Shown in pieces: positions 13,590 to 57,145 of a stretch of 64,000 nucleotides of DNA. Under the pieces are notes generated by a model. That model saw only the letters and a list, made by a program, of their open reading frames with translations. It did not search any database and was not told where the DNA came from. The stretch comes from Anaerolineales bacterium (GTDB lineage: Bacteria; Chloroflexota; Anaerolineae; Anaerolineales; Villigracilaceae), in assembly GCA_016934715.1 (NCBI GenBank), contig JAFGSI010000004.1, positions 124,001 to 188,000 of the forward strand, read 5' to 3'. Position 1 is the first letter of the stretch, and each line of letters opens with the position of its first letter. A program made the translations under genes and the position numbers.

Positions 13590-13661
13590 CGCGGGGTAGA
13601 GCAGTGGCAGCTCGTCGGGCTCATAACCCGGAGGTCGCAGGTTCGAGTCCTGCCCCCGCTA
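13590..13661 (+). tRNA. tRNA-fMet (CAT), initiator
   Basis: A complete cloverleaf: acceptor strand from C13590, D stem GAGC/GCTC, anticodon stem with three G-C pairs around CTCATAA (anticodon CAT), T arm GCAGG-TTCGAGT-CCTGC and discriminator A at 13661. The first base pair is mismatched (C1 against U72) and the anticodon stem carries GGG/CCC, both hallmarks of initiator rather than elongator tRNA-Met. The CCA end is not encoded. Confidence 0.95.
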
Positions 13662-13678
13662 CTGAACGGCAATCGAAG

Positions 13679-13718
13679 ACCGCAAGGCACCCTGAAATTG
13701 GGCAGCCTGGCGGTTTTT
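13679..13718 (+). terminator. Terminator downstream of tRNA-fMet
   Basis: Arms 13679-13688 and 13705-13714 pair with one mismatch around a loop that itself contains CCC/GGG; a run of five T ends at 13718. It separates the tRNA from the recombinase gene. Confidence 0.65.
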
Positions 13719-13752
13719 GGTTCGGGAGTCTCCCACAAAGGAGGCTTTTTTC

Positions 13753-14751
13753 ATGAACCAACGACCGCGCGGCTTGGATCTCTCGAAAGCGATCCCCGGC
13801 TTCCTGCAGTACCGGCTGGCCGAGGGATTATCGCCGAACACCGTCTCCGGCTACGAGCGCGACCTCAAGTTCTGGCTGGAACGCCTGGGGGACAGGGACG
13901 TCGGGCAGATCACGCCTGCCCAGCTGCTGGACGTCCTGAATTCCCTGCGCAACGGCTACGTGCCGCGGCACATCACGGGGGACAACGACCGCCCGTTGTC
14001 GGACAAAACGGTCTACAACTTCTACGTCAGCATCTCGGCCTTCTTCACCTGGGCCAGCCGCGAGTTCGAGATCCCCAATCCGATGAAGAAGGTTCCCCGC
14101 CCGCGGGTGCCCGAAGATCCACCGGTTGAACCCTTCAAGCGCGAGGACGTGGAGGCGCTGATCAAGGCCTGCGACTATTGCACTGAGGCCGACACGCACG
14201 ACCGGCGCAAGTTCGTCATGCGGCGCTCGACGGGAAGACGCGACAAGGCGATCCTGCTGATGCTCCTGGATACCGGCCTGCGCGCCAGCGAGCTGTGTGC
14301 GTTGCGGGTGGCGGACGTGGACCAGAAGACCGGGCGGGTCCGCGTCCGCGCCGGCGAGGAAGGCAAGGCCAAGGGCCGCAAGGGGCGGACGGTGTACGCC
14401 GGCAAAGCGGCCCGCCGCTTCCTGTGGCGTTCCCTGGCCGACCGGGAGGAGGGGGAGGACCCCGAGACGCCGCTCTTCATCGGCAAGTTCGGCCGGCCGC
14501 TGACGCGTGACGCCCTGCGCAGGGTTATCGCCGCGCTGGGGGAGAAGGCCGGGGTCAAGAAAGCCCATCCTCATCGTTTTCGTCACACCTTCGCGATCAC
14601 CTACCTGCGCTCCGGCGGGGACCTGTTCACCCTGCAGCGCCTGCTCGGGCACTCAACCCTGGAAATGGTCCAGCACTATGCCAATGTGGCCGAGATCGAC
14701 ATCGAACAGGCCCACCGCCGGGCCAGCCCGGCGGATAACTGGAGGTTGTGA
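13753..14751 (+). CDS. Tyrosine recombinase/integrase
   Basis: A 332-residue XerC/D-like recombinase. An N-terminal SAM-like DNA-binding domain (about 10-105) precedes the catalytic domain with Arg in DTGLRASELCAL, HPHRFRHTF (His-x-x-Arg), LLGHSTLEMVQHY with the second His and the nucleophilic Tyr. It catalyses site-specific strand exchange. A strong AAAGGAGG stands before the ATG at 13753, which decides the start over 13717. It lies 92 bases after tRNA-fMet and points away from it, the usual place for an integrase of an element inserted at a tRNA gene. A degraded copy of its 3' end lies 540 bases downstream. Confidence 0.93.
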   Translation: MNQRPRGLDLSKAIPGFLQYRLAEGLSPNTVSGYERDLKFWLERLGDRDVGQITPAQLLDVLNSLRNGYVPRHITGDNDRPLSDKTVYNFYVSISAFFTWASREFEIPNPMKKVPRPRVPEDPPVEPFKREDVEALIKACDYCTEADTHDRRKFVMRRSTGRRDKAILLMLLDTGLRASELCALRVADVDQKTGRVRVRAGEEGKAKGRKGRTVYAGKAARRFLWRSLADREEGEDPETPLFIGKFGRPLTRDALRRVIAALGEKAGVKKAHPHRFRHTFAITYLRSGGDLFTLQRLLGHSTLEMVQHYANVAEIDIEQAHRRASPADNWRL

Positions 14752-15261: not shown

Positions 15262-15292
15262 GGCCAGCCCGGCGGATCATTGGAGGATGTGA
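15262..15292 (+). repeat. Duplicated 3' end of the recombinase gene
   Basis: These 31 bases match 14721-14751, the last codons of the recombinase, with three mismatches, including a 16-base exact core. Translated, the piece gives ASPADHWRM against ASPADNWRL. It is a remnant of a second recombinase copy or a partial duplication. Upstream to 14993 no intact gene is visible. Confidence 0.7.
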
Positions 15293-15798
15293 TTGCTATC
15301 GTATCGATTGAGAAATGTTGGATGAAGAAATATCTGCGAATAGGAGTTCGCGGGCGTTTGCATGTTAGGAGACGATAGAGTAAGATTCGTATGAGGCTCA
15401 GCCATATGCTTGGTATAAACGCCCATCAGGCGCTTAATCTCATCGACCTGGGTAGCCAGAACAGCCAGAGCGTCATCAACGGAGCGGATCAATTTGGCGA
15501 ATTCTTCGAAATAGCGGTTATGGGTTGCTTTGGTCTTTACTTTCTTCCAGAGGTATTCGATCGGATTATAGTCAGGAGAGTAAGACGGTAATTGGTAAAC
15601 GATCAGGCGGTCTGTGTGCTGTTCGAAGAACTCACGAGTAGCCTGGCTGGTATGATACTTGGCCCCATCCTGGATCAAGAGGATCGGCCCAGAGAACTGA
15701 GCCAGCAGAGATAGGAGAAAGGCCTGATAACTGGCGCTATTGAAGCGTTCTTCCAGACCTTCGCCTGGTTGCATGATCGTACCCGCTTTTGGGCACAT
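15277..15798 (-). pseudogene. IS630-family transposase fragment
   Basis: The frame contains the C-terminal half of an IS630/Tc1-mariner DDE transposase: LLIQDGAKYHTS with the second catalytic Asp, and LPSYSPDYNPIEYLWKKVK with the terminal Glu region. The N-terminal DNA-binding part and first Asp are absent, and the segment before FNSASYQAFL looks shortened. It therefore cannot be an active transposase. No inverted repeats could be assigned. Its first codon overlaps the stop of the neighbouring gene, which is probably the truncation point. Confidence 0.85.
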
Positions 15799-16583
15799 TA
15801 GACCTTCTGAATGGCTGTCCTTATTGTGTCAAGACTGGCCTTGCGAAATCGCTTATATTCCTTGTGGTATAGCCAACCCGTTGGGAAAGTCAAGAAAATG
15901 GGAATGGATCTATCCATGTCTTTTACCTGGCTCTGGATTAATTCCCCTTCCGAGAGGCGTTCTACGTAACGTTCAATTGGGTCTTTCGACACGAGATTGA
16001 ATACCCCTTTGTTGAACGTTACCACTGCCTCCACCGAGGTCTCTTGAACTGTCTTCCTAAATTCATCCATTGCTTCTGGTTCAATGAATTGGCCGAAATG
16101 CTCTCTTCCAAATATTCTCCGGATATCTTCCGGGTAATTCGTTGGAAAAGCATAGTAACAGTAGAAGATCAGCTCAAAGGGTCCCTGGTAGTTTGCATTG
16201 ATACAAATGTCTGCTAGTTTCTTTGGAGTACGCTTTGCTTTAGCGATAGGTAGCCAATCCGCAGCTTCCATTGTAGGCCAGAAAAGGTTCTCCCGCCCTC
16301 TGGAATTTGCTGAAAGGAACATGCCTTGATGTACGGAGCTTGGATGAGGATTCGAGAACAAAAGCATGATCCGGGGTCGATTTTTTGAGACAGCAGGAAT
16401 CAGCCTCTCGGTGGAAAAAGTGATGCTTCTGTCTAAATCATTGAACGTGATTAGATCTGGATATCCCAGATACTTGTCCAATACTTGAATGGCACGCTCC
16501 TTAATGCTTTCATATCCTTCGCTTAATGGATACGTCCTCTGGAAAATGATGCTAGGCAATTGAGCCCTCTCGATGAGAATCAT
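15798..16583 (-). CDS. Hypothetical protein, possibly uracil-DNA-glycosylase-like
   Basis: A 261-residue protein with no confident family. The segment IMLLFSNPHPSSVHQGMFLS recalls motif A of the uracil-DNA glycosylase superfamily (a loop followed by a G-x-F-S end), and the C-terminal IPIFLTFPTGWLYH could stand in for the second active-site loop. That link is my inference from pattern only. It lies 57 bases downstream of the ADP-ribosylglycohydrolase on the same strand and may be the last gene of that run. GC content is lower than in the backbone, suggesting transfer. Confidence 0.6.
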   Translation of the reverse strand: MILIERAQLPSIIFQRTYPLSEGYESIKERAIQVLDKYLGYPDLITFNDLDRSITFSTERLIPAVSKNRPRIMLLFSNPHPSSVHQGMFLSANSRGRENLFWPTMEAADWLPIAKAKRTPKKLADICINANYQGPFELIFYCYYAFPTNYPEDIRRIFGREHFGQFIEPEAMDEFRKTVQETSVEAVVTFNKGVFNLVSKDPIERYVERLSEGELIQSQVKDMDRSIPIFLTFPTGWLYHKEYKRFRKASLDTIRTAIQKV

Positions 16584-16640
16584 CCTGTTGGATGATAATG
16601 ATTTTTGCTTTGGATATTGTGTTTCTTACTGTAGGTCATC

Positions 16641-17591
16641 TCAAGTTGCGGTTTGACCATTTCGTTCGAAATATGCTGCACTCAACTGCTCAGCCAATCG
16701 GGCGATCTCCCCTCGCATCACAAGTCTCTCCAGCCACGGGCTGGGGATCCCACTCGCGCCATAGTGCGCCCCGGCGATCTGTCCGCAAATGGCAGCCGTG
16801 GTGTCAGCATCATCGCCCAGATTGGCAGCAGTGAGAATAGCCTGTTCGAAGTTCTCGCTGGCCCAGAAGCTCCACAGTGCCGCTTCCAGACTTTTTACGA
16901 CATAGCCTGTGCCGTGGATATTGCTCGCGGCCTTGTTCAGGTAACTACCCTGCGCAATGGATTGGAGCGCTGCCGACCTGACCAGATCCGGGGGCGAGCC
17001 CAGAAGGATATCCTGTTTTCCTGCTCCGCCCAGGGCACGCAAGAGCATATCGCCGAAGAGCAGGCAGGCATCCAGACATTCGGGGGCTGCATGCGTGGTG
17101 CGCGAGCTTTCAGAGAAGTACTGCTGGATGCGAGCTTGATCCGGATAGTAGAACAGCACCACCGGCGCCAAGCGCATCAGGGAACCGTTTCCGGCCGAGT
17201 TCGGGTCGCTGGAACCGCTGAAGGGGTCACCGCTCTCTTTATATCGGTGTAGGGCTGTGCGTATTGTGTTTCCGATGTCGAAACAAACCCCGTTGCTGCT
17301 CAAATACCCGTTCTCGTACCAGTTCAGATAACGTTCCATCTGGTCGTGGGCGTCGAATCCCGCGCACTCGACCAGGCTCGTGGCCAGGCACAGTGCCATG
17401 GATGTGTCGTCGGTCCATTCGCCCGGCTCGAGCTGGAACGGGCCTCCGCCGAGCATGTCGGTCAGGGGAGGAAAAGAGCCGCGCGGTTGGAATTCTAGCG
17501 TTGTGCCGACCGCATCCCCCGTAGCCAGCCCGAGCAGGCAGCCCCTGAACCGATCCAGTTCATTCTTGGATGCGGATTGGTGCACCGTCAT
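16641..17591 (-). CDS. ADP-ribosylglycohydrolase family protein (DraG-like)
   Basis: A 316-residue protein of the usual family length. RGCLLGLATGDAVG near the N-terminus, WTDDTSM (about residue 60) and GDDADTTAAICGQIAGA near residue 260 carry the paired acidic metal ligands of the dinuclear Mg/Mn site. Such enzymes remove ADP-ribose from modified proteins or nucleic acids, or hydrolyse related compounds. It lies 28 bases after the MazG-like gene on the same strand, so it probably belongs to the nuclease-containing operon. Confidence 0.92.
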   Translation of the reverse strand: MTVHQSASKNELDRFRGCLLGLATGDAVGTTLEFQPRGSFPPLTDMLGGGPFQLEPGEWTDDTSMALCLATSLVECAGFDAHDQMERYLNWYENGYLSSNGVCFDIGNTIRTALHRYKESGDPFSGSSDPNSAGNGSLMRLAPVVLFYYPDQARIQQYFSESSRTTHAAPECLDACLLFGDMLLRALGGAGKQDILLGSPPDLVRSAALQSIAQGSYLNKAASNIHGTGYVVKSLEAALWSFWASENFEQAILTAANLGDDADTTAAICGQIAGAHYGASGIPSPWLERLVMRGEIARLAEQLSAAYFERNGQTAT

Positions 17592-17619
17592 TGATGACCT
17601 TCCATTTGAGCAAATCCGC

Positions 17620-17943
17620 CTATTCGGTCCACAGCAACTTCAGCCGCTTTTCGAACCCGCCGCGCTCGCTTCTCCGTTGGCGCTGGAGGCCTCGCACTGC
17701 CTGGCGGGAGATGCCCTTCTGGATCAGCAGCGCGTCGACCACTTCCAGGATGTCGGCCAACTCGGTCTTGAGGTGCAGCTCGTCCGCTTGCTGAGCTTCT
17801 TGCGCCTCCTCGACCAGTTTGTCGAGCAGGGCCTTTTCATACTCCCCTGGAGGCATGGTCTCCACCGCATAGCGTTTCCCGTCTTTCTCAATGATTTCCG
17901 GGATCCGATCTCGGATCAGTTTATTGTATGTGATCTTGGCCAT
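17620..17943 (-). CDS. MazG-like nucleotide pyrophosphohydrolase
   Basis: A 107-residue all-alpha NTP pyrophosphatase relative, beginning with the common YNKLIRDRIPEII segment and carrying EEAQE and ELADILEVVDAL, the acidic metal-binding helices of the MazG/HisE fold. It probably hydrolyses a nucleoside triphosphate or phosphoribosyl compound. It stands 10 bases after the upstream HNH gene and 28 before the DraG-like gene. The C-terminus is basic (RQRRSERGG) and less conserved. Confidence 0.85.
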   Translation of the reverse strand: MAKITYNKLIRDRIPEIIEKDGKRYAVETMPPGEYEKALLDKLVEEAQEAQQADELHLKTELADILEVVDALLIQKGISRQAVRGLQRQRRSERGGFEKRLKLLWTE

Positions 17944-17953
17944 GGTTTCTCCC

Positions 17954-19087
17954 TTAAAAGACCTGCAGGTTGCGCGCAGAAGCGATCACCTGCAGGTAGT
18001 CAGTGATCGAGTGGGTGAGCAGGGCAGGAAGTTCATCCCCGGAGACCTGACCCCCAAAACGCAGCCGGCTGTCCTGGATCAGGGCGGCCGATAACCCCGG
18101 CGACAACATGTATTGCACATAGGTGTGCTGCAAACGTGGTGTGGCCGCCGACAACCGCTCCGCTCCGGGCAGGCGATCACGCTTGACATGCTGGTTGAAC
18201 TGCCGGTCCGCGGGGACCAGGTTCCAGATCTCGTTGATCGGGTACACGCTCAAAGGAAGGATATGATCCAGATCATAACTGGTGGCGGAAAGTTTCTTAC
18301 CGGTCCAGGGACAGGTGAAGAGATGGCCTTCCATTATCAGGATGTCGACCTGGTTGCGTTCCCAGCTCAACGGCCGGCGGTTGTCGGGGCGGTCGGTCAA
18401 GAGGCCATAGACCAGTCCGCGCTCGACTCCGGCCAGGCTCTCAGTGAACAGGCACCATTGGTGGATACAGAGTGCTTCGATCCAGAGCGAGAGCTCGCAG
18501 AAGCTGGTCCACAATTCGGCGTCCACCAACACGCACATATCTTCCGGACGGGTTTCAGGCAGACAGGCTGCGGCCGGCTCGGTCTGCTGGATCTGGTCCC
18601 ACTTGCGGGGAGGGGCGAAGACTCCGTATTGATCGGGGCCGGCATAGCGGATGGGCTTTTGGATGGCAACGGTGATCGCCCGGATCGCCTGGTGGAAGGC
18701 GTCCACGAGCGGCCCCGGATAGGCACGCATGTGGATTGCGGAAAGAAACTCCCCGACTAGAAAGTACCCATCGGAAGGGTGGGAGACGCCAACGAGTTTC
18801 TCCCATTCCTGGCGCAGGTTGGTCAGAGCGGGGCGGAAGGATATATCTTCCCTGCCCCTGGCTTGCTGACCCTGGAGGATTGCCTGCTGTGGATCGACGA
18901 ACGGCCAGTAGTAGGCCACCCAGAAGCGCGCCAGGATGCGCAGGGGGATGGCAATCGCGGCCGCTCCCTGGCCGACGTGCGGAAAGCCCAGGACCACATC
19001 ATTGATGCTGCGAATCAGGGCGATCTTATAGCTGGCAACCTTGCGGTCGTGGCGCAGGATGGTGGCGATCAGGCTACCGGCATTCAT
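17954..19087 (-). CDS. HNH endonuclease domain protein
   Basis: A 377-residue protein. The first 230 residues are helical and unassigned; the C-terminal third has CPWTGKKLSATSYDLDHILP, then IWNLVPADRQFNQHVKRDRLP, which fits an HNH nuclease (His in DLDHI, Asn in WNLV, His in NQHVKRD). Only one Cys is seen, so the usual structural zinc site is incomplete. It begins 21 bases after the stop of another HNH gene and 10 bases before the MazG-like gene. Likely a restriction or defence nuclease. Confidence 0.8.
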   Translation of the reverse strand: MNAGSLIATILRHDRKVASYKIALIRSINDVVLGFPHVGQGAAAIAIPLRILARFWVAYYWPFVDPQQAILQGQQARGREDISFRPALTNLRQEWEKLVGVSHPSDGYFLVGEFLSAIHMRAYPGPLVDAFHQAIRAITVAIQKPIRYAGPDQYGVFAPPRKWDQIQQTEPAAACLPETRPEDMCVLVDAELWTSFCELSLWIEALCIHQWCLFTESLAGVERGLVYGLLTDRPDNRRPLSWERNQVDILIMEGHLFTCPWTGKKLSATSYDLDHILPLSVYPINEIWNLVPADRQFNQHVKRDRLPGAERLSAATPRLQHTYVQYMLSPGLSAALIQDSRLRFGGQVSGDELPALLTHSITDYLQVIASARNLQVF

Positions 19088-19108
19088 GGGGGCAGACCAA
19101 AAGTCGCT

Positions 19109-20014
19109 TTATCCATTGATACTCTGGAACTTGGCGTAACGCCATTCCAGGGCTTCCTGGTTGGGCCAATCGGCCTGGTTGCGGGGCAACAAAATCCTAG
19201 AGCGCTCCAATCCCTTGAGCGCATGCTGCAGGACTGGGCCGTCCTCTTCTTGCAAGATGTCCTCCCGAATATGGATCAGATAATCCGGCGTGACGGTCAA
19301 TAGGAAACTATCGAAGGCTGCATGATGTAGCTTGCAGAGCGCCAGGCCATTGCGGACGATCGGCCAGCCCTCCGGGTGAGGATCCGGGAGGATATGGGCC
19401 GCATCCAGCAGCTCGCGATGGCGCAAGCGGCAGAGGGCGCACTGGGATTGATACGCCTGGAGCACCCGCTCCCGAAAAGAACGTTGATGGAGGCGGACGC
19501 GCACCTCGGCAGTCAGGTACTGGCGACGGGCGTCTTCGGGGGCCGTATGCAGGAACTGCTCCGGCTGCAGGACAACCCTGTCCATATCTTCTGCTACAAC
19601 CTGGAAGGTCAGCGCCGCGGGATTATCCCCGACAATGTAGACTGGCCAGACTGCCAGGTACTGGCTTTTCACAAGGCCGAAGAAGTACACCAGTGGTCGG
19701 TTCTCTTGCATGGCACGGCGAAGGCCCACATTATCACGATGCTGGGGATCCTCTCCCCGGTAGCGGTAATGGAGGATCTCGCCCTGTTCAAAGGCATCGT
19801 CGTATGGACTTTCAGGAGTGGTTGTAATGGATAGGGGCAGCTCCATGATTCGAGGCTTGAAAATCCCCTGCGGACCCATGAAAGGCACACGTTCCCCTTT
19901 GTATTGAAATCCCTGCTGGAGCAGGGGGCGAGGCAGAACGTCCTCCCCGTGGATGTTTTTCTGCTCGGCCAGCCATTGGAAGGCTGCTATGCGTATGCTT
20001 AGATCATTGTCCAT
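19109..20014 (-). CDS. HNH endonuclease, restriction-type
   Basis: A 301-residue protein. The N-terminal half includes GEILHYRYRGEDPQHRDN and RPLVYFFGLVKSQYLAVWPV, a pattern I associate with predicted HNH restriction endonucleases. The C-terminal part has CALCRLRHRELLDAAHILPD, then IVRNGLALCKLHHAAFD with zinc Cys residues and the H-N-H catalytic triad. It is the first gene of the minus-strand run ending at 15798. Target DNA and modification dependence cannot be read from sequence. Confidence 0.85.
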   Translation of the reverse strand: MDNDLSIRIAAFQWLAEQKNIHGEDVLPRPLLQQGFQYKGERVPFMGPQGIFKPRIMELPLSITTTPESPYDDAFEQGEILHYRYRGEDPQHRDNVGLRRAMQENRPLVYFFGLVKSQYLAVWPVYIVGDNPAALTFQVVAEDMDRVVLQPEQFLHTAPEDARRQYLTAEVRVRLHQRSFRERVLQAYQSQCALCRLRHRELLDAAHILPDPHPEGWPIVRNGLALCKLHHAAFDSFLLTVTPDYLIHIREDILQEEDGPVLQHALKGLERSRILLPRNQADWPNQEALEWRYAKFQSING

Positions 20015-20368: not shown

Positions 20369-21031
20369 ATGGCCGCCAGCACTAATCAGAAACAAGGATG
20401 TGCAAGTATCTTATTGCCATTCCTGCGCCGTGCAAAAGATAAAACGCCCGCAGAAGTCCTGCCTTATCGTCTGCGAGACGATTTTTTATCCCCTGCTGAG
20501 CTTTCATTTTACAAAGTGCTGTCATCGTTGATGACAGGTTCGAGACTTGTCATTCAGGTCAAGGTGGGGTTGGGGGATCTCTTCTATGTCATCCGGCCGA
20601 ACGAGAATCATGCCTATATGAACAAAATCCGCCAGAAGCATGTCGATTTCCTGATCTGTGACTCGGCCACGATGAGACCTTTGTTGGCGATCGAGTTAGA
20701 CGATTCCAGTCACGATCAGCCCCGTCGCCAAGCTCGGGACGAGTTTGTTGATCAGGCTTTCCAGTCAGCAAATTTCCCGTTGTTGCATATTCCAGCCCAG
20801 CGCGAATACAATACGCAGGAAATCACTGCTCGCATCGCGCCTTTGCTCAAGGCCAGCATGAACGCGCCGATTAAGAAGTCAGAGCCGTCGTCGCTAGAAG
20901 CGGCCCCGGTGTGTCCCAAGTGTGGCATTCCGATGGTGGTCAGGACTGCAGCACAAGGCGCGCACAAAGGGGAACAATTCTATGGCTGTCCCAATTATCC
21001 GCGTTGCCGCGAGACAAGAATGATTTCTTGA
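20369..21031 (+). CDS. DUF2726 (PD-(D/E)xK-like) protein with zinc ribbon
   Basis: A 220-residue protein. Residues about 30-165 fit DUF2726, a restriction-endonuclease-like fold: YRLRDDFLSPAELSFYKVL, then KHVDFLICD and LAIELDDSSHD with the acidic residues of the nuclease core. The C-terminus, VCPKCGIPMVVRT to FYGCPNYPRCRET, is a four-Cys topoisomerase-type zinc ribbon that should bind DNA. The ATG at 20369 is the first in frame. Possibly a nuclease in DNA repair or defence; activity not shown. Confidence 0.85.
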   Translation: MAASTNQKQGCASILLPFLRRAKDKTPAEVLPYRLRDDFLSPAELSFYKVLSSLMTGSRLVIQVKVGLGDLFYVIRPNENHAYMNKIRQKHVDFLICDSATMRPLLAIELDDSSHDQPRRQARDEFVDQAFQSANFPLLHIPAQREYNTQEITARIAPLLKASMNAPIKKSEPSSLEAAPVCPKCGIPMVVRTAAQGAHKGEQFYGCPNYPRCRETRMIS

Positions 21032-21232
21032 GATCAGTCGTTATTTTTATTGGCTCTCTCCAGAACATATGCCTCTCCCTTTTCAAGCGGCGCAAGGTGT
21101 AATTCGATGTAAAATAAAGTTACTCCTCTTTGGGGCATCATTGATGACCATGGAAGAACGGGGAGCCCTGGGGAAAAGAAAATTCGGGTCGATTAGTTCA
21201 GAAATTTGGTTTCGGGAAAGCCGAGAAAAACC

Positions 21233-21961
21233 ATGAAATCCAACCCGACCGAAATCACGCAAGCCCTTCTTGCTTACGGAGAAACCCTCCCGCCGACGGA
21301 TATCTTCCCCGTCATGGTCCCGGAGGCGGCAGAATTGATCGTCCGCGATCCTTATGCCTTCTGTATCGGCACCTGCCTTGACCGCGGTGCCAGGGCCGAG
21401 GTCATCTGGACCATCCCCTATGACATGAAGAATGCACTTGGCCATCTGGACCCGTATCGGATTTATGGCATCTCCCTGGATGCATTGGCAGGTTTATTTG
21501 CCTGCCTACCGCGCAAGCCCCGCTATCCGAATGCCGCACCCCGCACGATCCGCGAATTGACTAATATCGTGGTGGAAAGATGCGGCGGTGATGCCTCCCG
21601 GATCTGGGTAGGGAAAAGCGCTGTCGAAGTCCAAAATACCTTCTGTTCCATCCATGGTGTAGGGCCGGGCATTGCCAGCATGGCGGTGTTGTTGATCGAG
21701 AAAGCTTTCGCGGTCCGCTTTGAAGATCACTGGAATATGGACATCAAGCCGGATATTCACACTGTACGCGTTCTTTACCGGCTGGGGGCCAGCCAGGCCG
21801 AGACCGTCGAGGCCGCCCTGGCAGCCTCCCGGCAAATGAACCCGGCATTTCCTGGCATCGTGGATTGGGCGTTGTGGAATATCGGCCGCAATTGGTGCCG
21901 GTCCGCAGATCCGGATTGTGAGATCTGCCCTGTCTCTGAGGTTTGCGAGAAGCGCTATTGA
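21233..21961 (+). CDS. HhH-GPD / endonuclease III-like DNA repair protein
   Basis: A 242-residue protein. IHGVGPGIASMAVLLI is a helix-hairpin-helix, and DIKPDIHTVRVLYRLG follows with the catalytic-type Asp. The end, WCRSADPDCEICPVSEVC, has C-x6-C-x2-C-x5-C, the [4Fe-4S] loop of endonuclease III relatives. It would be a base-excision glycosylase or structural variant. The ATG at 21233 is chosen over a TTG at 21206. Its stop overlaps the start of the next gene (TTGA), so the two are coupled. Confidence 0.85.
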   Translation: MKSNPTEITQALLAYGETLPPTDIFPVMVPEAAELIVRDPYAFCIGTCLDRGARAEVIWTIPYDMKNALGHLDPYRIYGISLDALAGLFACLPRKPRYPNAAPRTIRELTNIVVERCGGDASRIWVGKSAVEVQNTFCSIHGVGPGIASMAVLLIEKAFAVRFEDHWNMDIKPDIHTVRVLYRLGASQAETVEAALAASRQMNPAFPGIVDWALWNIGRNWCRSADPDCEICPVSEVCEKRY

Positions 21962-22365
21962 AAAGAATTATCCTGATTTCCTGTGTCAGTAAGAAACGCC
22001 CGTACCGGGCGAAGGCGAAAGATCTGTATATTAGCGCCCTGTTCAGAAAGAACCTCGCCTATGCCCAGCGGTTGAATCCGGATGCGATTTATATTCTGTC
22101 GGCGAAGTATGGCCTGGTGGATCTGGAGACAGAGATCGATCCATATGATCTGACCCTGAATACGATCTCGGCTGAACTGATCAAGAAATGGGCGGTCTAT
22201 GTATTACATCAGTTGTCGGCGGTGGCCGATCTCCGGCAGGATCATTTTATCTTCCTGGCCGGCATGAAGTACCGTAAATATTTACTGCCCCATCTGGCAT
22301 CTTATGTAATTCCGCTGGAGGGATTGCCGATCGGAAAGCAGTTGCAATACTTGTCCAAACCATAG
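21958..22365 (+). CDS. DUF6884-like protein
   Basis: A 135-residue protein beginning KRIILISCVSKKRPYRAKA, with YILSAKYGLVDLETEIDPYD in the middle, which I recognise from memory as the DUF6884 pattern. Function unknown; the family is often near DNA-processing or phage-related genes. The TTG at 21958 is favoured because the family starts with this segment and the codon overlaps the upstream stop; a TTG at 21943 is also possible. Confidence 0.65.
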   Translation: MKRIILISCVSKKRPYRAKAKDLYISALFRKNLAYAQRLNPDAIYILSAKYGLVDLETEIDPYDLTLNTISAELIKKWAVYVLHQLSAVADLRQDHFIFLAGMKYRKYLLPHLASYVIPLEGLPIGKQLQYLSKP

Positions 22366-22386
22366 AATCTTATTTACGGTAACGGT

Positions 22387-23076
22387 ATGGGAAAAATCTA
22401 CATTCCTGCAGCATCCCCTGAAGATTAGAGAAAACTCCTCGCCGCGCCCGAGAAGCACTGGAAAGAGGGGTATTCTGCGTGGGCCCTCGCTTATTGCTGG
22501 CAGAATGGAAAAGGGTTTCCTCCTGAAGTCGCTTTGCTTTTCGAAGCCTCCGGGCATCCTGCATTCCGTCAACTGGAATTCTTGTTGGCGACCCCCGAAT
22601 ACCAGGTGCGCATTCCTCCTACGCGTGGTCATCCATCCCAGAACGACCTGTTCGTTCTGGCGAAGGCAGCGGATGGTGGTTTGGTATCTATCATGGTGGA
22701 AGGCAAAGTGTCTGAGAGCTTTGGTCCATCCCTGGGGGCGTGGATGGTGGATTTCACTCCTGGGAAGAAAACCCGCCTCGCTTTCTTGCGGTCGAAACTG
22801 GGATTGGACCAGGAACTGCCAACGAGTTTGCGTTACCAGCTTCTGCATCGACTGGCTTCAGCGGTGATCGAGGCGGAGCGATTCGGAGCCAGGTACGCAG
22901 TCATGATGATTCATTCCTTCAGCCCGGCGGATGCCTGGTTCGATGATTATGTCTCGTTCCTGTCATTATTTAATGTCAGGGGAGAGACTGGAACACTTGT
23001 CAGACTGGCGGAATTGAATGGGGTCAGTGTCTTTGCGGGGTGGGTTCGGGGCGACCCGAAATATTTACAGGCTTGA
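22387..23076 (+). pseudogene. DUF6946-like protein interrupted by an amber codon
   Basis: From the ATG at 22387 the frame reads 13 residues (MGKIYIPAASPED), then TAG at 22426-22428, then continues open to 23076 with the conserved body (KHWKEGYSAWALAYCW, LVSIMVEGKVSESFG, RYQLLHRLASAVIEAERF). The stop sits where related proteins, as I remember them, have Trp, so a TGG-to-TAG change is likely. A downstream start giving 180 residues (from about 22534) would lack the N-terminal third. Annotated as DUF6946 from memory; the EGK segment suggests a nuclease-like fold. Confidence 0.65.
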
Positions 23077-23197: not shown

Positions 23198-24856
23198 CTA
23201 GAACAAGATCTCCTCATCCGACAGATCGTCTTCCCTGTCATAAACTTCCTGGAACCAGTTGTACATATCTTTGTCCAGTTCCTCCAGGGCGAGCAATTGC
23301 ATTCCCGTTGACTCCCAATTCTTCCCGTGAACAGGATGCCTGTTGATCTCATCCTGATATTCCAGCGCCTCGGCCGGCCATGCTTCCCGGGAGAACCCCA
23401 GGTAAGATACTTTCCAGCGGTGAAATTTCGGAACGTATCTGCAGGTCTTGACCTGGACAAGCTCTTCCATGACCCGGCGGCCGTTCTCCACCGAACCCCA
23501 CAGGCATTCTCCCAGGAACAGGGTCTTCTCTGCCCGGTTGAGCCCGACGATGGGCCCCTCATCCTTCGATTTCCAAGCACTCCCGATCTCGAAGACCTCA
23601 TGCGGCAGCTTGCCTCTCGCGCAAGCCCACAGGACCCACTGCCGGCACAGGTCCGGCCAGACATTCGAAGCAATGAATTTGGGCATTTGCTCCTCAACCT
23701 CCTCAAAGACCTGGTCCCCCTGACCGGAGGCGATCTCTTCTTCCCGGCCGGCCAGGAAGGTGGCATGAAATCTCAGGAATGGATCGTTGATGCAATACCG
23801 GCTCCGCCGGGACCGCAGTGATGTGTCGATTACGGGCCGCTCTGCCTCGATGATCCGGGCCCTGGTCAGCAGGTCAAGCTGCGCTGGCACATCCACCCCT
23901 TTCAGCTCGGGGAAGGCCGCGATCTTTTTGGCCGTGTTCTTACCCCGGGTGATCGCCTTCAGGATCGCCAGGGGAATGGCCGGCTCGGCGCTGTAGTCTT
24001 GCAGCAGCCGGCGCGGTTCGGACAGGAGCGGGCCGGCTGGGGAGAACAGCAGGTCCCTGAGATTGTCTGTTACCGATCGCGCTGGGTCCAATCTCGCCCA
24101 GTAGGCCGGGATGCCCCCGAAAACAGAGTAGAGGGTGACCCGCTCGATGGCCGAATAGTGGGGGAAAAAACTGCGGGTGGTGTTGAACACGAAGGGCCGC
24201 AGCTGGATCTGCGACCTTGCGCGCATGTAAAGCGGAGCGTGATGGTACGAGAAGATGTCCCGGAACATCACATCCAGGTTGGAGCCGGCCAGGCACAGGA
24301 AGAGATCCAGCTCGTCGGAGTGAAGGTCCCACAACTTTTGAAACTTGCTGGCCATCCCCGGCGTGGCTTGTGCCAGGTAGGGGTATTTATCGATGAACAA
24401 TGCCAGGCGCTCTTCTTGCGCCAGCCGTCCAACCATCTCGAATGCCTCTTCCCAGCTGGCGCAGGCGCAGCCTTCCAGGGTTGGCTTACCGGCGGCGCTG
24501 TAGTCCCGCAGCGCCTGGCAGAAGGAATGCAGCTGCTCGGCCGGCGAGACCTGGGGGACTTCCCAATGCAGAACCCGGACGCCGGTCCGGCGAGCCCACT
24601 CTTTGAGCAGGGTGGTCTTGCCGACTCTCCTCGGGCCGTGCAGAATGAGCAATTCTGCCCTGTCAGATTCCCAACACCGGCTGAGCGTTTCGAGTTCGAC
24701 CTCCCGGTCGAAGAAATGATCATTCATGCTGATCCCGTGAGGTTCCAGGAGTGGGAAAGTGTCATAGGAATATTCTGCGATCGCATTTTGGAGCAATCTG
24801 TCCAATTCTTCCGGATCGATCTTGGCGAGCATCTCCCACAGCCCAGCAAGGTCCAC
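23198..24856 (-). CDS. Archaeal-type ATPase with DUF234 C-terminal domain
   Basis: A 552-residue protein counted from the GTG at 24856; an ATG at 24727 would give the more usual N-terminus MNDHFFDRE. Walker A is LILHGPRRVGKTT. The expected Walker B region reads LALFIDKYPYL, with Lys where the family normally has an acidic residue after Asp. The C-terminal SRRSRYCINDPFLRFHATFL segment fits DUF234. These STAND-like ATPases are of poorly known role and often lie in mobile or defence regions. Confidence 0.8.
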   Translation of the reverse strand: MDLAGLWEMLAKIDPEELDRLLQNAIAEYSYDTFPLLEPHGISMNDHFFDREVELETLSRCWESDRAELLILHGPRRVGKTTLLKEWARRTGVRVLHWEVPQVSPAEQLHSFCQALRDYSAAGKPTLEGCACASWEEAFEMVGRLAQEERLALFIDKYPYLAQATPGMASKFQKLWDLHSDELDLFLCLAGSNLDVMFRDIFSYHHAPLYMRARSQIQLRPFVFNTTRSFFPHYSAIERVTLYSVFGGIPAYWARLDPARSVTDNLRDLLFSPAGPLLSEPRRLLQDYSAEPAIPLAILKAITRGKNTAKKIAAFPELKGVDVPAQLDLLTRARIIEAERPVIDTSLRSRRSRYCINDPFLRFHATFLAGREEEIASGQGDQVFEEVEEQMPKFIASNVWPDLCRQWVLWACARGKLPHEVFEIGSAWKSKDEGPIVGLNRAEKTLFLGECLWGSVENGRRVMEELVQVKTCRYVPKFHRWKVSYLGFSREAWPAEALEYQDEINRHPVHGKNWESTGMQLLALEELDKDMYNWFQEVYDREDDLSDEEILF

Positions 24857-35353: not shown

Positions 35354-38300
35354 ATGCCCTCAGAACGCGAGAACGAGATTTTACAATTCCTGAATGACGT
35401 AACCGATCCTCTCCTGCTCATGGAGAAACTTCTGCAGGAAGCGGATGTGCGTATCTCGTTCGAACAAGCAGAGCGTATTCTTAAGGTTCGCGGCCAACTC
35501 TCCGGCAAGGAGTTCCTTTCTCTACAGCAGTTCAAGGATCATTGTGGTTTACCCGATGATCATGTCGAAGATCTTGAACGATTGCTGGTTCCCGACCCCT
35601 ATACGCCAATGAAGAATTGGCCTGTTCTCCTGTTCCCGGTTCGCCTTGAAACCCGCTTTATCAAAAATGACCTGTGCATACGGATATACCCGGACAAAGT
35701 TTCCATTGAAACGCATGAGCAAAAGCTGACCGAACGTGAATTCGAGATGGGGATGTATTATCGCGAGATTCACGAGACAGGTTCGAAAGAGGCAAAGCAT
35801 GAAGCCTGGCGAAGACTCGCAAAACTGTTCGGACCTCAGCGCGCAGCCTGGGTCCGAAGGGTTGCGCTTGACCTTCCTCGTGGCGCCGAACCTGTATTGA
35901 AGGGGAAAAGTTGGACGAAAGCGCCACGGTTGCGGTCGTTTCCAGACAGGTTTGCCATCTATTTGTACCGGGACGCAAATCTGGTGAGAAAGCAGGCTTG
36001 CGAGAATCGAATTCCGCGAACCCTGCCAATCTTTTCCTCCCCTGAAGTGTCTCTGCCCAGCCTGTTCGCTGAATCGTCGGATTGGGTCGTCGATTTCGAT
36101 AAGGCTGTTGAATACGGTATGGCCCTGCGTATCCCATTTACCGATGATGAAATGGTCGTGAACCGAAAACTGGGGTTTTCAAGAGTGATTGCTGTGGGAA
36201 TCCGCGCCGTTGAACCCGAAACCGGGCTGCAGGAGCTTGAGGGTCTCATCGACAACCATCATTACACGTCTGGAGGGCTTGCCTTTCTGGAGCCTGGAAC
36301 GCCAACCAATAATACCCAGGAGGCCAAGGCCGGCAGCCCGACGAGCGATCCATTGCTGGAAGCCAGTTATAGAACTGAAGTTAAGGGACCTGTGCTGTGG
36401 GATTCGCCGCCTCAACTTCCTGAGACGAATGCACAGCGCCTTGGATTCGCGCTGGGGCTCGGGATGCAGCCGGAGGCGCTGCGCTATATTGATGGGGCAG
36501 GGGATAAGAAGGATTCCTATTCAAAAGACATGCGGGCTGCGCTTTGGCCGGCGACTGGAGGGTATTTTCTCCAGACCATGTTGCCAGGTCTGATTGCTCC
36601 CCCCAGATTGGAAGAACTAGCAGGGCATTTCATATCACATGTCGATGCGGGAGGGCCTCTCCCTACGATCCGCGTCGGGGACCAGCCTTACGGCATCCTG
36701 CCGGCGTCGACGATATTCTCTCGGGAAAAAACCGCGGCTGTGCTTTTGGAAGGGCTAGACCCTGGCGGGGAGAGATTTCCCGTTGATCGAAGTCTTGATG
36801 ATCAACTCGCGTTCCTCCTGCGAAGATTTGCCCTGAAATGGCTGGATTACGCGCGGAATCCCGAACTGGTTCCGAGAATCAACACGACGGATGACCCGGA
36901 CAAAGAGCTGCTGCAAGTGCTTGCCATGCAACCGGTCTCGATTTCCTACCAGGCGCGGCCATTTGTGAATGAGGGCTTTCTCTCATTTTTGTTGATTGCT
37001 CTTCGTAAATACGTGTTCGGGTCGTTTACCCTCTTCGGGAGCGAGGTGCCGTCCCCATTGTTCTGGGTACAGCAGTGGGCGGAGATCTATAATGAAAAAC
37101 GGCGTGAGACGGCCGCTGTTCTACAGGGATTGTCCGGGCACGCGGGCGAAAGATTTTTGGATATGCCGCTGTTGAGGGTGATTGGATGGTGGGAGGGCGT
37201 TTCGCGCCCGCTGCCCTATACGGTGGGCGCGGATCCCGGGGATGAGCCCCGGGCATATCTGCGCAGTCTATGTGATCAACTGCCCACGACATCGGGGACA
37301 CTCCTTTTTAATCTGCTGCGGCGCTCCCTTAAATCCAAGTCAAGTGCCGAGTCCGTCAGGGCGGCCATTTGCCGTCTGGCAAACTCCGACTTCACGTCTG
37401 CCGTGCTGGAATTTTTCAACCGTGTAACAAGCCCTGAACAGATCACGGGCTGGGTCGAGGACGATCCCGAATTTCCGCGGGCGTCTTCGGGGGCATACGG
37501 CATTGGCGAGACTGTCGCCAAACGGATCCTTGAGACCCGCGCGGCGCTGCCCGCCGAGCGATTTACCAACCTGCAGCAGATCGACGAGATCGCCGGGATC
37601 GGCGAGGATAAGCTCCAGGATATTTTTTATTCGATGACTGCCGAGGAACAGTATCCGGATTATGACCGCCTGATGCGCGAGACGCTGGATCTGTGTACGC
37701 ATCGCCTTGACGCATGGATCACCTCCATCGCCTCGAAACGGCTGGCGGCGATGCGGGAAAGCAAACCGACCGGAATATACCTGGGTGCTTACGGGTGGGT
37801 GGAAGATCTTATACCATCCGGGGCGAAGAATAGCGCCGGGTTCATTCATGCCCCGTCGGCCGCGCAGGCTGCGACGGCAGCCGTATTGTATAACGCCTAT
37901 CTTACCCACGATGATCCTGAAGATGCTACTGAAGATACCGGCGTCTTGAGTCCGAATCCATTCAGGTTGGATCTCAATTCGGCGCGGGTGCAGAATGGGC
38001 TGAACTTGCTGGATGGCATCAGGCAGGGACAGACGTTGGGGGCACTTCTTGGTTACCAGTTCGAACGGGCGCTCTTTGATGCACCGGACATGAACCTGGC
38101 CGAGTATGTGGACGACTTTCGGTATCGCTTTCCCATGGTCGCGAATAAAGAAACGAAACCAGTTGGGGATGAGAGTATTGAAGCGCTCGCGGCCAGAAAT
38201 GTTGTCGATGGGCTGGCGCTTGCGCGCGCATGGCGGGATGACGCCCACGGTGACATCGGATTTCTCGTCGAGAAATTGAAAGGGATCGCTGCTTCTGAGA

Positions 38301-40648
38301 AAGGGACCTTCAAGTCCATACTCACTGATCTGCTGGAATCCCTCGATTGCGTGAGCGACCTGCTTGTCCATGAGAGTGTTTACCAGGCGGTCCAGGGCAA
38401 CTATGACCGGGGCGGAGCCGCTTTGGAAGCCGCCGCGGGGAGCCTTACGCCGCCGGAGATTCGCTCGATCGCGACGCCGGTTTCCGGCAGGACTTTCAGC
38501 CAGCGAGTGTGCCTGTTGTTCAATGAACCGCCGGCCGGTCCGTCAAGCGATCCCTCTCCGCGGGAGCTTGCCGAGCCGCGCATTGCGGCCTGGTTCGCGC
38601 GTATCCTGGGGAACATGGACAGCATCCGGTGCGCCATTTCGTTCAAACCCGCAGTGGATTCGGAGCAAGCCAGTTGCACCATATGCCTTTCCGAGCTTGG
38701 AATGACGCCGATCGATTTCCTGTACCTCTCGGCAGTGCTTCCGGAGGGGGGCGAAACCGAACTGGACCGCAGGATCAAGTTTCACGCGCGGAACAATTAC
38801 AACCTGTCTTACACGGAGCCCATCGCGATCGATTACACCGCTGACGAAGGGGCCAGCAGCATTGCGGACGCCCTTGAGGTGGGCCGCCATGCCCTGCATG
38901 TGCTCAATGCGGCGGGATATCTCAAACCCGAAGCTCTTGCCCGGCCATCCGTTGAAGAAGCGAGCTCGTTTGCAGATGCAGATATCGAAGAACTGGAAAC
39001 GCGCGTCAAAGACACCATGGTTCTGGTGGATAAGGCAGTAAGTGATTTACAGAGTTTCGTACTGACCAATTCGACTGTCGTGGATGACACCTTCCGTCTC
39101 GGCCTGCTTGCATCGATCAAGAACGCGGCACGATTCTCGGTCCCGGCAGCGGTCCCGGCCGGCGGATCCGGTGAACCTGCCGAGGAACTTGAGAAAAGAC
39201 GTTGGGCGGTATGCGCAGAATTGGAGAAGAGGCAAAAAACTTGTATTGGCATTCTGGATGCGTATCGCGAAATTGGCAGTGTCTCTTCCTCGAACGAAGA
39301 GGATACGGATGAATTCGTCACGAAAAAGATCAATTCCTATAAAGCTGTTTCCCTGCTCATCGAAGCCACCCAGGCGCTCATGGGAAAATCTTTTATCATC
39401 CTTCCCGCATTTACGGTCAATCCGGGCAGCGAATTCCATGATGCGCTGGTACGGGGCACTTTATTGCCAGATGATGAAACGATGCGACTCTGGATCCAGC
39501 AGGCGGCGAGCACCCACGAACCGCTTCGTGACGTGGACACCTTCATGATGATGGCCGAAACCTGGACGCAGGCAGTGCGGGATGGTGGCGACCCGGAATT
39601 CTCGTTCCACGTGGCGCAGCTGCCTGCGGAAGCAGGCGCGAGCTGGCTTGGCGTCGAACACGACTTCGATGCGACCACGATGGAATACCAGGGAGAGACG
39701 CTTTCTCTGGTGACGGGTTGGTCAAGACCTCCCGAAACAGGCGAGGGGGCGAAGGAACTAAGGATCGCCGGCCTCCTCTTTGACCAGTGGGAGGAGTTCC
39801 TCCCCTCGGACAAGGTGCACACCAGCGTTGCCATTCAATACAATTCCCCCAACACGCAGGCGCCGCAGTCCCTGCTCCTGGCAGTGCCGGAAAGCAGTGG
39901 TTCGGAGCCGTGGAGCGAGGATGACCTGGCGGCGATCGTTTCGGACACCCTGGATCTGGCCAAGATCAGGACGGTCGACCTCGACGCGCTGAGAGATCTC
40001 CCGGGCGGGGATCATCCCGGGCCGGACCTGGGCATGATCCTGCCGGCTGTTCTGCTTCCCGTAGACCCCGATCATCCCGAATGGGAGCGGGATACGGCGT
40101 TCGGCACATTCCAAAACTGGATTGATGCGCTTACCGGAAAAGTCACCTGTATGGATTTCTCCGAATTTGATCCCCTCGAGAACCCCTGGCTGTTATTGCC
40201 GATCGGAATAAACAATTTCACAATCGATGCGGTTGATGGGGAGACAACAAGTATCCCGTTCGGTTTCATCGAGGACGGTAAAGTGGGAATGCTCTACACG
40301 CGGTCCAAGAGCCTGACCGTTGAACTGCCTCACGAGACCGAATTGGTGCGGCTCAGAATGGGGTGGACCCCGGAGGTCGATCCCAGGAAATGTATCCAGG
40401 CCTTCGATGCCGCGGGAGTACCGCTCAAGACGGGCATCACTGCCGACCATCCCGAAGAGATCGCCTTGGTGCTCGATCATGTTCGTGGTGAGATCGAAAA
40501 ACTGGTCATTCGGAAGGTGAGTGTATATGGTGTCGGCATCAAGAAGCTGAAAATTTCTGCCGTCGCGCAGGACGAAGATATTGGGACGAAGCGGATTATG
40601 GCGATCGAGCAGATTTGCGTTCGTGACGGCGAGGAGGTTGCGCCATGA
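35354..40648 (+). CDS. Giant operon gene A: 1,764-residue uncharacterised protein
   Basis: No confident function. No signal peptide or membrane segment is visible, so it is probably cytoplasmic. The N-terminal region holds NWPVLLFPVRLETRFI (about residue 88) and IRIYPDKVSIETHE, then RVGDQPYGILPAS (about 440). Near residues 715-760 AYGIGETVAKRILETRA and EIAGIGEDKLQDIFYSM form a helix-hairpin-helix-like pair, a DNA- or protein-binding motif. LLGYQFERALFDAP lies near 900. Similar large hypothetical proteins exist in other bacteria, as I recall, but none with known role. The next gene overlaps by 4 bases. Confidence 0.85.
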   Translation: MPSERENEILQFLNDVTDPLLLMEKLLQEADVRISFEQAERILKVRGQLSGKEFLSLQQFKDHCGLPDDHVEDLERLLVPDPYTPMKNWPVLLFPVRLETRFIKNDLCIRIYPDKVSIETHEQKLTEREFEMGMYYREIHETGSKEAKHEAWRRLAKLFGPQRAAWVRRVALDLPRGAEPVLKGKSWTKAPRLRSFPDRFAIYLYRDANLVRKQACENRIPRTLPIFSSPEVSLPSLFAESSDWVVDFDKAVEYGMALRIPFTDDEMVVNRKLGFSRVIAVGIRAVEPETGLQELEGLIDNHHYTSGGLAFLEPGTPTNNTQEAKAGSPTSDPLLEASYRTEVKGPVLWDSPPQLPETNAQRLGFALGLGMQPEALRYIDGAGDKKDSYSKDMRAALWPATGGYFLQTMLPGLIAPPRLEELAGHFISHVDAGGPLPTIRVGDQPYGILPASTIFSREKTAAVLLEGLDPGGERFPVDRSLDDQLAFLLRRFALKWLDYARNPELVPRINTTDDPDKELLQVLAMQPVSISYQARPFVNEGFLSFLLIALRKYVFGSFTLFGSEVPSPLFWVQQWAEIYNEKRRETAAVLQGLSGHAGERFLDMPLLRVIGWWEGVSRPLPYTVGADPGDEPRAYLRSLCDQLPTTSGTLLFNLLRRSLKSKSSAESVRAAICRLANSDFTSAVLEFFNRVTSPEQITGWVEDDPEFPRASSGAYGIGETVAKRILETRAALPAERFTNLQQIDEIAGIGEDKLQDIFYSMTAEEQYPDYDRLMRETLDLCTHRLDAWITSIASKRLAAMRESKPTGIYLGAYGWVEDLIPSGAKNSAGFIHAPSAAQAATAAVLYNAYLTHDDPEDATEDTGVLSPNPFRLDLNSARVQNGLNLLDGIRQGQTLGALLGYQFERALFDAPDMNLAEYVDDFRYRFPMVANKETKPVGDESIEALAARNVVDGLALARAWRDDAHGDIGFLVEKLKGIAASEKGTFKSILTDLLESLDCVSDLLVHESVYQAVQGNYDRGGAALEAAAGSLTPPEIRSIATPVSGRTFSQRVCLLFNEPPAGPSSDPSPRELAEPRIAAWFARILGNMDSIRCAISFKPAVDSEQASCTICLSELGMTPIDFLYLSAVLPEGGETELDRRIKFHARNNYNLSYTEPIAIDYTADEGASSIADALEVGRHALHVLNAAGYLKPEALARPSVEEASSFADADIEELETRVKDTMVLVDKAVSDLQSFVLTNSTVVDDTFRLGLLASIKNAARFSVPAAVPAGGSGEPAEELEKRRWAVCAELEKRQKTCIGILDAYREIGSVSSSNEEDTDEFVTKKINSYKAVSLLIEATQALMGKSFIILPAFTVNPGSEFHDALVRGTLLPDDETMRLWIQQAASTHEPLRDVDTFMMMAETWTQAVRDGGDPEFSFHVAQLPAEAGASWLGVEHDFDATTMEYQGETLSLVTGWSRPPETGEGAKELRIAGLLFDQWEEFLPSDKVHTSVAIQYNSPNTQAPQSLLLAVPESSGSEPWSEDDLAAIVSDTLDLAKIRTVDLDALRDLPGGDHPGPDLGMILPAVLLPVDPDHPEWERDTAFGTFQNWIDALTGKVTCMDFSEFDPLENPWLLLPIGINNFTIDAVDGETTSIPFGFIEDGKVGMLYTRSKSLTVELPHETELVRLRMGWTPEVDPRKCIQAFDAAGVPLKTGITADHPEEIALVLDHVRGEIEKLVIRKVSVYGVGIKKLKISAVAQDEDIGTKRIMAIEQICVRDGEEVAP

Positions 40649-42885: not shown

Positions 42886-42889
42886 TAAC

Positions 42890-55177: not shown

Positions 55178-56125
55178 CATTTCTCGACGCGCATCGAAGG
55201 CAATCGCCTGACTCTGGCAGAGGCAGAACGGGTCGTGCTCGATGGCCGGCAGTTCCCTGGCCGGGAGCGGGACACGCTCGAAGTCCAGCACTATTTCCAG
55301 GCCCTGGAACAGGTGGAGAACTGGGTGGAGCAGGGCATTCCAGTTACAGAAGAACGTATCCAGAAATTGCATGCCCTGATCTATACCGGTAAGCGTGCCC
55401 GACCGACTCCCTACCGTGACGGGCAGAATGCAGTCAGGGATGGCAGCGGAGGTCTTGTCTACCTCCCGCCAGAGGCGAAGGATGTTCCCAGCTTGATGGC
55501 GGAACTCGTGACATGGATCCGGCGAGCGGAGGATGGACAACCAGTGCCTGTCGTCGCCGGCCTGGCGCACTATCAGTTCGTTACGATCCATCCTTACTTT
55601 GACGGGAACGGCCGCACGGCGCGTGCCCTGGCAACCTGGATTCTGTACCGTGGGGGCTATGATCTGGGACGGTTCTATGCTCTGGAAGAGTTCTATGTGC
55701 AGGACCTGGCTGGCTATTATGCTGCCCTGGTGACCCATTCGCACCACAATTACTACGAAGGTAGGACGACTGCGGACATCACCCCCTGGCTGGCATATTT
55801 TCTCAAGGGTATGGCTTCTGTGTTCGAGTCGGTCGCTGCCGAAGTGCGCGGGCGAGCGGTGGAATCGGATCCGCGGGCCGAGGCGCTCCTGCGCCGGCTC
55901 GACCGCCGTGGACGGATGGTCCTGGGGCTTTTCGGACGGCAGAACGAAATCACTTCCAACGAAGTGGCTCGTATCCTTGGGCTTTCCCCCCGCCAGGTAC
56001 GCGACCTGCTGGCTGAGTGGGTGAATGCCGGCTGGTTGGAAATCGGTGATCCGGCGCGCAAATCCAGGCGGTACCGTTTATCGGTGGAATATCGGCGGTT
56101 TATCGGCGATTTGTCGGCGGAGTAA
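55178..56125 (+). pseudogene. Fic-family AMPylase lacking its 5' end
   Basis: The frame from 55178 reads HFSTRIEGNRLTL (the class II inhibitory S/T-x-x-x-E-G motif) through an intact catalytic HPYFDGNGRTAR (near 55592) to a C-terminal winged helix (EITSNEVARILGLSPRQVRD). No start codon precedes the inhibitory motif; the first in-frame one is GTG at 55235, giving 296 residues without that motif. Fic enzymes add AMP to target proteins. The promoter-like TGATATACTCA directly abuts this truncated body, consistent with an internal deletion of about 135 bases relative to the 53771 fragment. It may be dead or deregulated. Confidence 0.8.
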
Positions 56126-57072: not shown

Positions 57073-57145
57073 GTCTTGTGAAGCGTAGTGGGTTTTAGGG
57101 TGGAAGACTCGATCTGTGATGTTCGGACGCGAAGAAAAAGGTTGG

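Follow-up and report, generated by a model that had tools for sequence, protein, structure and literature searches.

Nucleases that combine a winged helix-turn-helix (wHTH) and/or SAD (SRA) domain with an HNH domain are, according to the passages available from two articles, restriction parts near DNA phosphorothioation and BREX loci (PMC10853773, PMC12839542), and those bearing wHTH, SAD and HNH domains together are assigned there to the phosphorothioation (PT) systems (PMC10853773). In the literature covered, this is the nearest published theme to a gene pair found in a 64,000-nucleotide stretch of an Anaerolineales genome (hereafter the window; assembly GCA_016934715.1, 4.09 Mb in 88 contigs and 97.8% complete; contig JAFGSI010000004.1, positions 124,001 to 188,000). 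On the minus strand of the window, positions 15798–20014 hold five consecutive genes for two HNH nucleases (HNH1 and HNH2), a MazG-like nucleotide pyrophosphohydrolase, an ADP-ribosylglycohydrolase (ARH) and a 261-amino-acid (aa) orphan protein (gene 5). The coordinates of these open reading frames (ORFs) reproduce exactly those of an original prediction from the bare sequence, including the intergenic gaps of 21, 10, 28 and 57 bases from gene 1 to gene 5. While that prediction had taken the whole string for one anti-phage or DNA-modification system, the part that recurs elsewhere is the adjacent HNH2–MazG pair. With about even chances, the latter represents a two-gene nuclease/nucleotide-hydrolase defence module, placed here behind HNH1 and accompanied by ARH and gene 5 as accessory or incidental genes. 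Neither the pair nor the gene set is described in the open PubMed Central (PMC) papers covered by title, start of abstract and passages, and the pair does not appear in the passages of PMC9503650, PMC12839542, PMC10853773, PMC10910872 and PMC11037411, in line with the earlier statement that no named system is known to have this composition. HNH2–MazG is also absent from PADLOC-DB 2.0.0, and we could not match it to any described system.

The core of the module is HNH2 (gene 2, 17954–19087), a 377-aa nuclease exceeding the Pfam cut-off for HNH_4 (PF13395, 32.8 versus 22 bits) and matching also Cas9 models at the sequence level. In its AlphaFold2 model (predicted local distance difference test, pLDDT, 86.2; predicted TM score, pTM, 0.87), residues 238–372 superpose on the HNH domain of Nme Cas9 over 96 residues with a Z-score of 7.4 and a root-mean-square deviation of 3.0, where values of Z below 8 may reflect merely a common arrangement. 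This modest score agrees with the HNH_4 and Cas9 matches, and the C-terminal domain of the model (about residues 238–377) is accordingly regarded as a Cas9-like HNH domain. In contrast to Cas9, with which this domain is shared by profile and superposition, HNH2 comprises 377 aa in total and no RuvC domain was detected in it. Residues 1–237 are mostly helical in the model and gave no match to a relative, and Foldseek searches with the model yielded nothing below an E-value of 0.001 in PDB or BFVD. Invariant positions across 39 aligned rows include H275, N289 and N298 in the HNH domain and many residues in the N-terminal part. The family is widely but thinly distributed, with 65 related loci in the species-genome collection (some partial), relatives in 25 plasmid records, nearly full-length ones of about 51% identity on plasmids of Nostoc, Leptolyngbya, Tolypothrix and Hymenobacter, and matches in 14 of 400 Chloroflexota genomes, the source genome included and the other 13 labelled ‘same phylum’ only. 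A phage origin of HNH2 was considered and rejected, as 50,697 phage records gave no match and IMG/VR a single relative.

Gene 3 (17620–17943), the second member of the conserved pair, scores below the Pfam cut-offs for both PRA-PH (19.1 versus 21.3 bits) and MazG (14.3 versus 22 bits) and can thus be named MazG-like only. The acidic residues shared with MazG/PRA-PH pyrophosphohydrolases (EExxE...ExxD; E46, E49, E61 and D64) are, however, invariant or nearly so in 14 aligned rows, so that the enzyme class proposed earlier is backed by residue conservation but not by the family scores. With its 107 codons, gene 3 was equalled by a chance ORF in 492 of 1000 Markov-simulated regions and consequently rests on its homologues and not on length, while genes 1, 2, 4 and 5 were equalled in 1, 0, 0 and 0 per 1000 regions, respectively.

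Besides the window, 18 of 61 named full-length loci carry a MazG-like homologue of gene 3 immediately 3′ of HNH2 and on the same strand; seven of these loci are from Hymenobacter, five from Trueperaceae/Truepera, three from Chloroflexota, two from cyanobacteria and one from an actinomycete. From this count, a fusion (L008), L074–L078 (some of them plain duplicates) and loci with a broken or partial HNH2 (L006, L019, L038, L063, L064, L066 and L069–L072) are left out, and the counted rows include the near copies L053/L054 and L003/L030. The two genes are separated by 2–14 bp in 15 of the 18 loci and by 88 bp in L041, and in L050 and L073 the ORFs as called from their first start codons overlap. 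The acidic motif is present in 16 of the 18 adjacent MazG genes, with L041 and L050 as exceptions. As the actinomycete copy (L041, on a 3.6-kb contig of a metagenome-assembled genome, MAG) is divergent (33% identity), lacks the motif and follows an HNH2 nearly the same as that of the Chloroflexota MAG L068, this occurrence is doubtful, and the pair is firmly placed in four phyla, namely Bacteroidota, Deinococcota, Chloroflexota and Cyanobacteriota. Conservation of gene order, the check suggested with the prediction, was hence found across phyla for HNH2–MazG but, in the loci examined, not for the five-gene order, ARH or gene 5. On a quick HNH2 tree of 62 rows (window included, 19 with MazG), in which the deep branching is weakly resolved and L007 has a very long branch, MazG adjacency requires at least nine changes. 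Seen from the other gene, 8 of 301 Chloroflexota genomes contain a MazG relative, which in two of them (the window and G161) is located directly 3′ of HNH2.

HNH1 (gene 1, 19109–20014), preceding the pair, is a 301-aa restriction-like endonuclease of the HNH_2 type (PF13391, 40.7 bits at a cut-off of 21), so that the HNH label predicted for both nucleases is supported by Pfam. In PADLOC, it matches generic HNH models (HNH at 4.9e-22). H207, N222, H230 and H231 are invariant in 14 aligned rows, and the N-terminal half is conserved as well; Pfam gives matches over cut-off for the HNH part alone. The best solved chains for the HNH1 profile are 6ghs (TagI) and 6yex, the latter labelled ‘HNH endonuclease’ and presumably VcaM4I, both aligned in the HNH part only at E-values of about 0.005. 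HNH1 thus resembles TagI (SRA-HNH) and VcaM4I (EVE-HNH) in that a conserved N-terminal half precedes the HNH domain at the C-terminus, but only the HNH part aligns with them, and the N-terminal half gave no Pfam match over cut-off to an SRA, EVE or wHTH sensor. Thirteen of 301 Chloroflexota genomes, the source genome among them, have a full-length relative (above 200 bits) of this widespread family, and plasmid-borne relatives lie beside a type I restriction system in Allochromatium and some 6 kb away from a gene associated with phosphorothioation in Methylibium. Divergent from HNH1, a DUF2726 gene with a topoisomerase-type zinc ribbon is encoded at 20369–21031 on the plus strand, and a 51% relative of it stands beside an HNH1 relative in L106.

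HNH_2-type nucleases also neighbour HNH2 in other lineages. Such a gene overlaps HNH2 in Deinococcus sp. NW-56 (L006), precedes it by two genes in Hymenobacter (L055) and is found at a distance of about 1 kb on two Azospirillum plasmids. Thirteen cyanobacterial loci also have one next to or near HNH2 (12 records of Nostocales type, and L056 with the gene on the opposite strand); the copy in L024 is a fragment at the contig end. Assignment of the Nostocales copies was based on their resemblance to L015, in which the HNH_2 domain was profile-detected. In the Deinococcus locus, HNH2 itself (L006:6950-8323) is interrupted in frame, with two same-frame ORFs matching it behind the HNH_2 gene. HNH2 relatives exist also as methyltransferase fusions; all nine proteins tested match the HNH2 profile in the N-terminal and HNH parts, and Pfam detects a SAM (S-adenosylmethionine) methyltransferase domain in all four scanned, with HNH_4 just below cut-off in two. 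Methyltransferase–HIT proteins with 50% identity to each other are encoded at two loci, in L062 overlapping the HNH2 end and in L027 convergently after MazG. In L084 and L085, similar proteins (55% in L085) come after HNH_4 proteins 372 and 374 aa long. As these HNH_4 proteins match the HNH2 profile in the HNH part alone, L062 and L027 are counted as the only firm cases. Methyltransferase–HIT proteins are rare, with one occurrence in 261 Chloroflexota genomes (G166, at the L084 locus; G323, which carries L085, is absent from the matches and presumably outside the 261 drawn) and none on plasmids at an E-value of 1e-15.

Directly upstream of HNH2, a NUDIX protein is encoded in L026, a PLD-like protein in L052 (26.3 bits, cut-off 27) and the start of a DUF4007 protein in L057 (27.2 bits, cut-off 27), while at numerous loci the ORF preceding HNH2 is unrelated or spurious. 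A NucS-annotated gene is one small ORF away from HNH2 in L005, and Cmr genes (L005), McrC (L095) and DUF262 (L002) are found near HNH2 relatives. Of the defence-type setting originally proposed, the proximity of some HNH2 relatives to restriction or CRISPR genes therefore stands, but not the five-gene system. Within eight ORFs of HNH2, gene clusters read as UmuC are present in 11 loci and ones read as UmuD in 9 (among them L035, L037, L038, L046, L052 and further loci of Hymenobacter and Nodosilinea), possibly indicative of an SOS link.

Likenesses to PT systems are seen at some of these loci. In Nostoc L015, a match to a PT-DNA restriction model covers most of the HNH protein beside HNH2 (124.6 bits against a cut-off of 180). 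A Dnd-associated model scores 58.3 bits with the methyltransferase–HIT protein of L062 (cut-off 150), and the DUF4007 start before HNH2 in L057 is a further likeness. In contrast, HNH1 matches the PT-dependent restriction model NF045808 only in its HNH part (residues 167–293; 66.6 bits, cut-off 180), and the source genome (G000) has no DndC match. Among 28 other HNH2 genomes searched, DndC is over cut-off in three (L010, L012 and L025), while 5 of 14 control genomes show matches, none over cut-off. Phosphorothioate dependence as a general rule was rejected accordingly. In Nostocales, a PT link may hold, since L012 and L025, being both of the searched Nostocales genomes with a PT-type HNH beside HNH2, carry DndC over cut-off.

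For the HNH2–MazG module in its present setting, we infer that DNA is the target and defence the role, with the following division of labour. Foreign DNA, probably carrying modifications or damage, would be cleaved by HNH1 and HNH2. MazG would spare the host by destroying nucleotides, either abnormal ones or signals, that feed into such DNA or regulate the nuclease. By analogy to TagI, matched in the HNH part of the profile only, HNH1 might add a restriction step against modified DNA. All three proteins would be made from a likely polycistron, and co-transcription of genes 1–4 is plausible from their gaps of 10–28 bp on one strand. A rather unlikely extension of this mechanism would have HNH2 found an undescribed family of defence nucleases that is checked or licensed by a small nucleotide, with the partner clearing a phage-made or damage-derived signal. 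The nucleotide would then arm HNH2 via the helical N-terminal part, and the module would here be wired to a restriction-type HNH enzyme. This reading draws on several swappable partners that destroy nucleotides, namely MazG (18 loci), methyltransferase–HIT (L062 and L027, and next to the HNH_4 proteins of equal length in L084 and L085) and NUDIX (L026).

Several results weigh against a defence module standing behind HNH1. In the flanks (up to about 1.5 kb) of the 12 other full-length HNH1 loci of Chloroflexota, no relatives of HNH2, MazG or ARH are found, and the order HNH1–HNH2–MazG was encountered in this window only. In 43 of the 61 named loci, HNH2 comes without MazG (including L024, where 45 bp are left downstream), and the pair adjoins FabF- and acyl-carrier-like genes in L026 and sulfatase-like ones in L048 (names read from sequence). 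PADLOC gives HNH2 a weak PDC-M01B match to the HNH part alone and offers no good model for the pair; with genes 3–5 unmatched at an E-value of 0.1 and gene 1 hitting generic HNH models, the suggested PADLOC check lends nothing to the five-gene system. When 75 ORFs each at offsets 1–2 and 6–8 from HNH2 were sampled (drawn from 154 and 161 candidate ORFs 100 aa or longer; 15 loci dropped as near copies, duplicates, fragments or plasmid records), 53 PADLOC families appeared near and 27 far. This comparison is not clean and is not used as evidence: UvrD-helicase models in the near set probably repeat few proteins, the ORF calls include spurious ones, and distinct proteins were uncounted.

The flanking genes bear on the question whether the string is a functional unit at all. 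ARH (gene 4, 16641–17591), as predicted an ADP-ribosylglycohydrolase and here placed in the DraG/ARH family (PF03747, 267.8 bits at a cut-off of 26.2, E-value 1.9e-79), aligns to the structures 6dre (280 bits) and 2cwc through its WTDDTS and DAD motifs, which we take to be metal-binding. Together with a score of 349.3 bits for the NCBIfam model of the ADP-ribosylarginine hydrolase Tri1, the match to 6dre might point to a brake on a toxin, with ARH providing immunity to an ADP-ribosylating toxin or the string forming a toxin–antitoxin set. This is highly improbable, as the Tri1 score is below the equivalog cut-off of 490, no ADP-ribosyltransferase was found in the part of the window genes scanned, and ARH relatives (E-value up to 1e-60) occur in 34 of 301 Chloroflexota genomes, with relatives of the window MazG or HNH genes in the fetched flanks of none of 29 other ARH loci. 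Gene 5 (15798–16583), previously read as glycosylase-like, matches no family over cut-off and no glycosylase profile in Pfam, NCBIfam, PHROGs or PDB sequences. Searches of plasmids, phages, viral contigs and the remaining 399 of the 400 Chloroflexota genomes, but not of the species-genome collection, yielded no relative; the glycosylase reading thus finds no support, and a single-sequence model (pLDDT 40.7) was unusable. A helix-hairpin-helix (HhH) DNA-glycosylase-like gene is encoded elsewhere, at 21206–21961 on the plus strand (TIGR03252, 54.4 bits, cut-off 136.5), where it overlaps a DUF6884 gene (PADLOC PDC-M57A, 4.2e-58) followed by a DUF6946 gene (span 21206–23076), and a 40% relative of it follows HNH2–MazG in L041 (L041:2961-3605).

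Gene 5 deviates in composition, with a G+C content of 44.5% versus 58–61% for genes 1–4 and a third-position G+C of 0.49 versus 0.67–0.76, in a window showing 65–70% up to 14 kb and 43–62% beyond. Its end is adjoined by a truncated DDE_3 transposase ORF outside the module (15277–15798, minus strand; PF13358, 74.9 bits from profile position 56), presumably of IS630 type, and gene 5 is probably a separate arrival. These features, the five-gene order repeated in no locus examined, and the HNH1 and ARH relatives standing apart in other Chloroflexota would also fit a chance pile-up in a variable region, in which the conserved pair happens to be flanked by a common gene of restriction type and two unrelated passenger genes, no function being shared beyond the pair. 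A promoter-like match, the only one in the region, sits between genes 4 and 5 and would agree with this, though matches are below the shuffle level (1 observed versus 3.4) and neither promoter nor terminator scans of the region gave an excess over shuffled sequence. Such a pile-up is considered improbable for the string as a whole, as the short same-strand gaps between genes 1–4 suggest co-transcription and HNH_2-type genes adjoin or lie near HNH2 in several further lineages. The claim of one five-gene system is nonetheless abandoned, no locus examined showing the same order, and HNH1, ARH and gene 5 are likely additions to the HNH2–MazG pair, since relatives of the former two stand apart elsewhere and gene 5 is an orphan. 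The main rival to a defence module is DNA repair or genome maintenance, where HNH2 would process damaged DNA and MazG clean damaged nucleotides in a house-cleaning role. The UmuC-/UmuD-read clusters in 11 and 9 loci, DprA 12 bp before a MazG relative (L132) and annotated about 6 kb from HNH2 (L005), the HhH relative after the pair in L041 and hosts including several Deinococcota and Hymenobacter are all compatible with repair. However, the patchy spread (14 of 400 Chloroflexota genomes), the plasmid location in 25 records and restriction-type neighbours at several loci speak against it, making repair somewhat unlikely and defence the more likely role of HNH2–MazG.

Elsewhere in the window, a tRNA-Met gene followed by a tyrosine recombinase gene (13590–14751) is located at the G+C drop. 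An integrative element at this tRNA-Met was considered and rejected, as no second copy of the tRNA 3′ end (up to two mismatches) was found in the genome and the recombinase has a host-like G+C of 0.656. Further genes encode a PDC-S27-like ATPase (23198–24856) and, at 55235–63938, a SoFic-like Fic protein, an AbiEii-like protein and a long DinG-like helicase. On the plus strand, tightly packed large ORFs of 1764, 746, 1118 (M23 peptidase), 1189 (DUF6603) and 1245 aa extend over 35354–53549; PADLOC gave no matches for them, and Pfam matches over cut-off were obtained in two of four scanned.

Thus, with HNH2–MazG a nuclease and a nucleotide hydrolase are kept together as a compact pair of about 1.5 kb in at least four phyla, and the partner swaps toward other nucleotide-processing enzymes suggest a shared chemical logic that is without entry in PADLOC-DB 2.0.0. 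HNH2 itself would represent a Cas9-like cutting domain placed on a sensor-like helical part. Should the pair serve in repair and not in defence, a role would still be assigned to an unannotated family that is recurrent in Hymenobacter, Nostocales and Trueperaceae.

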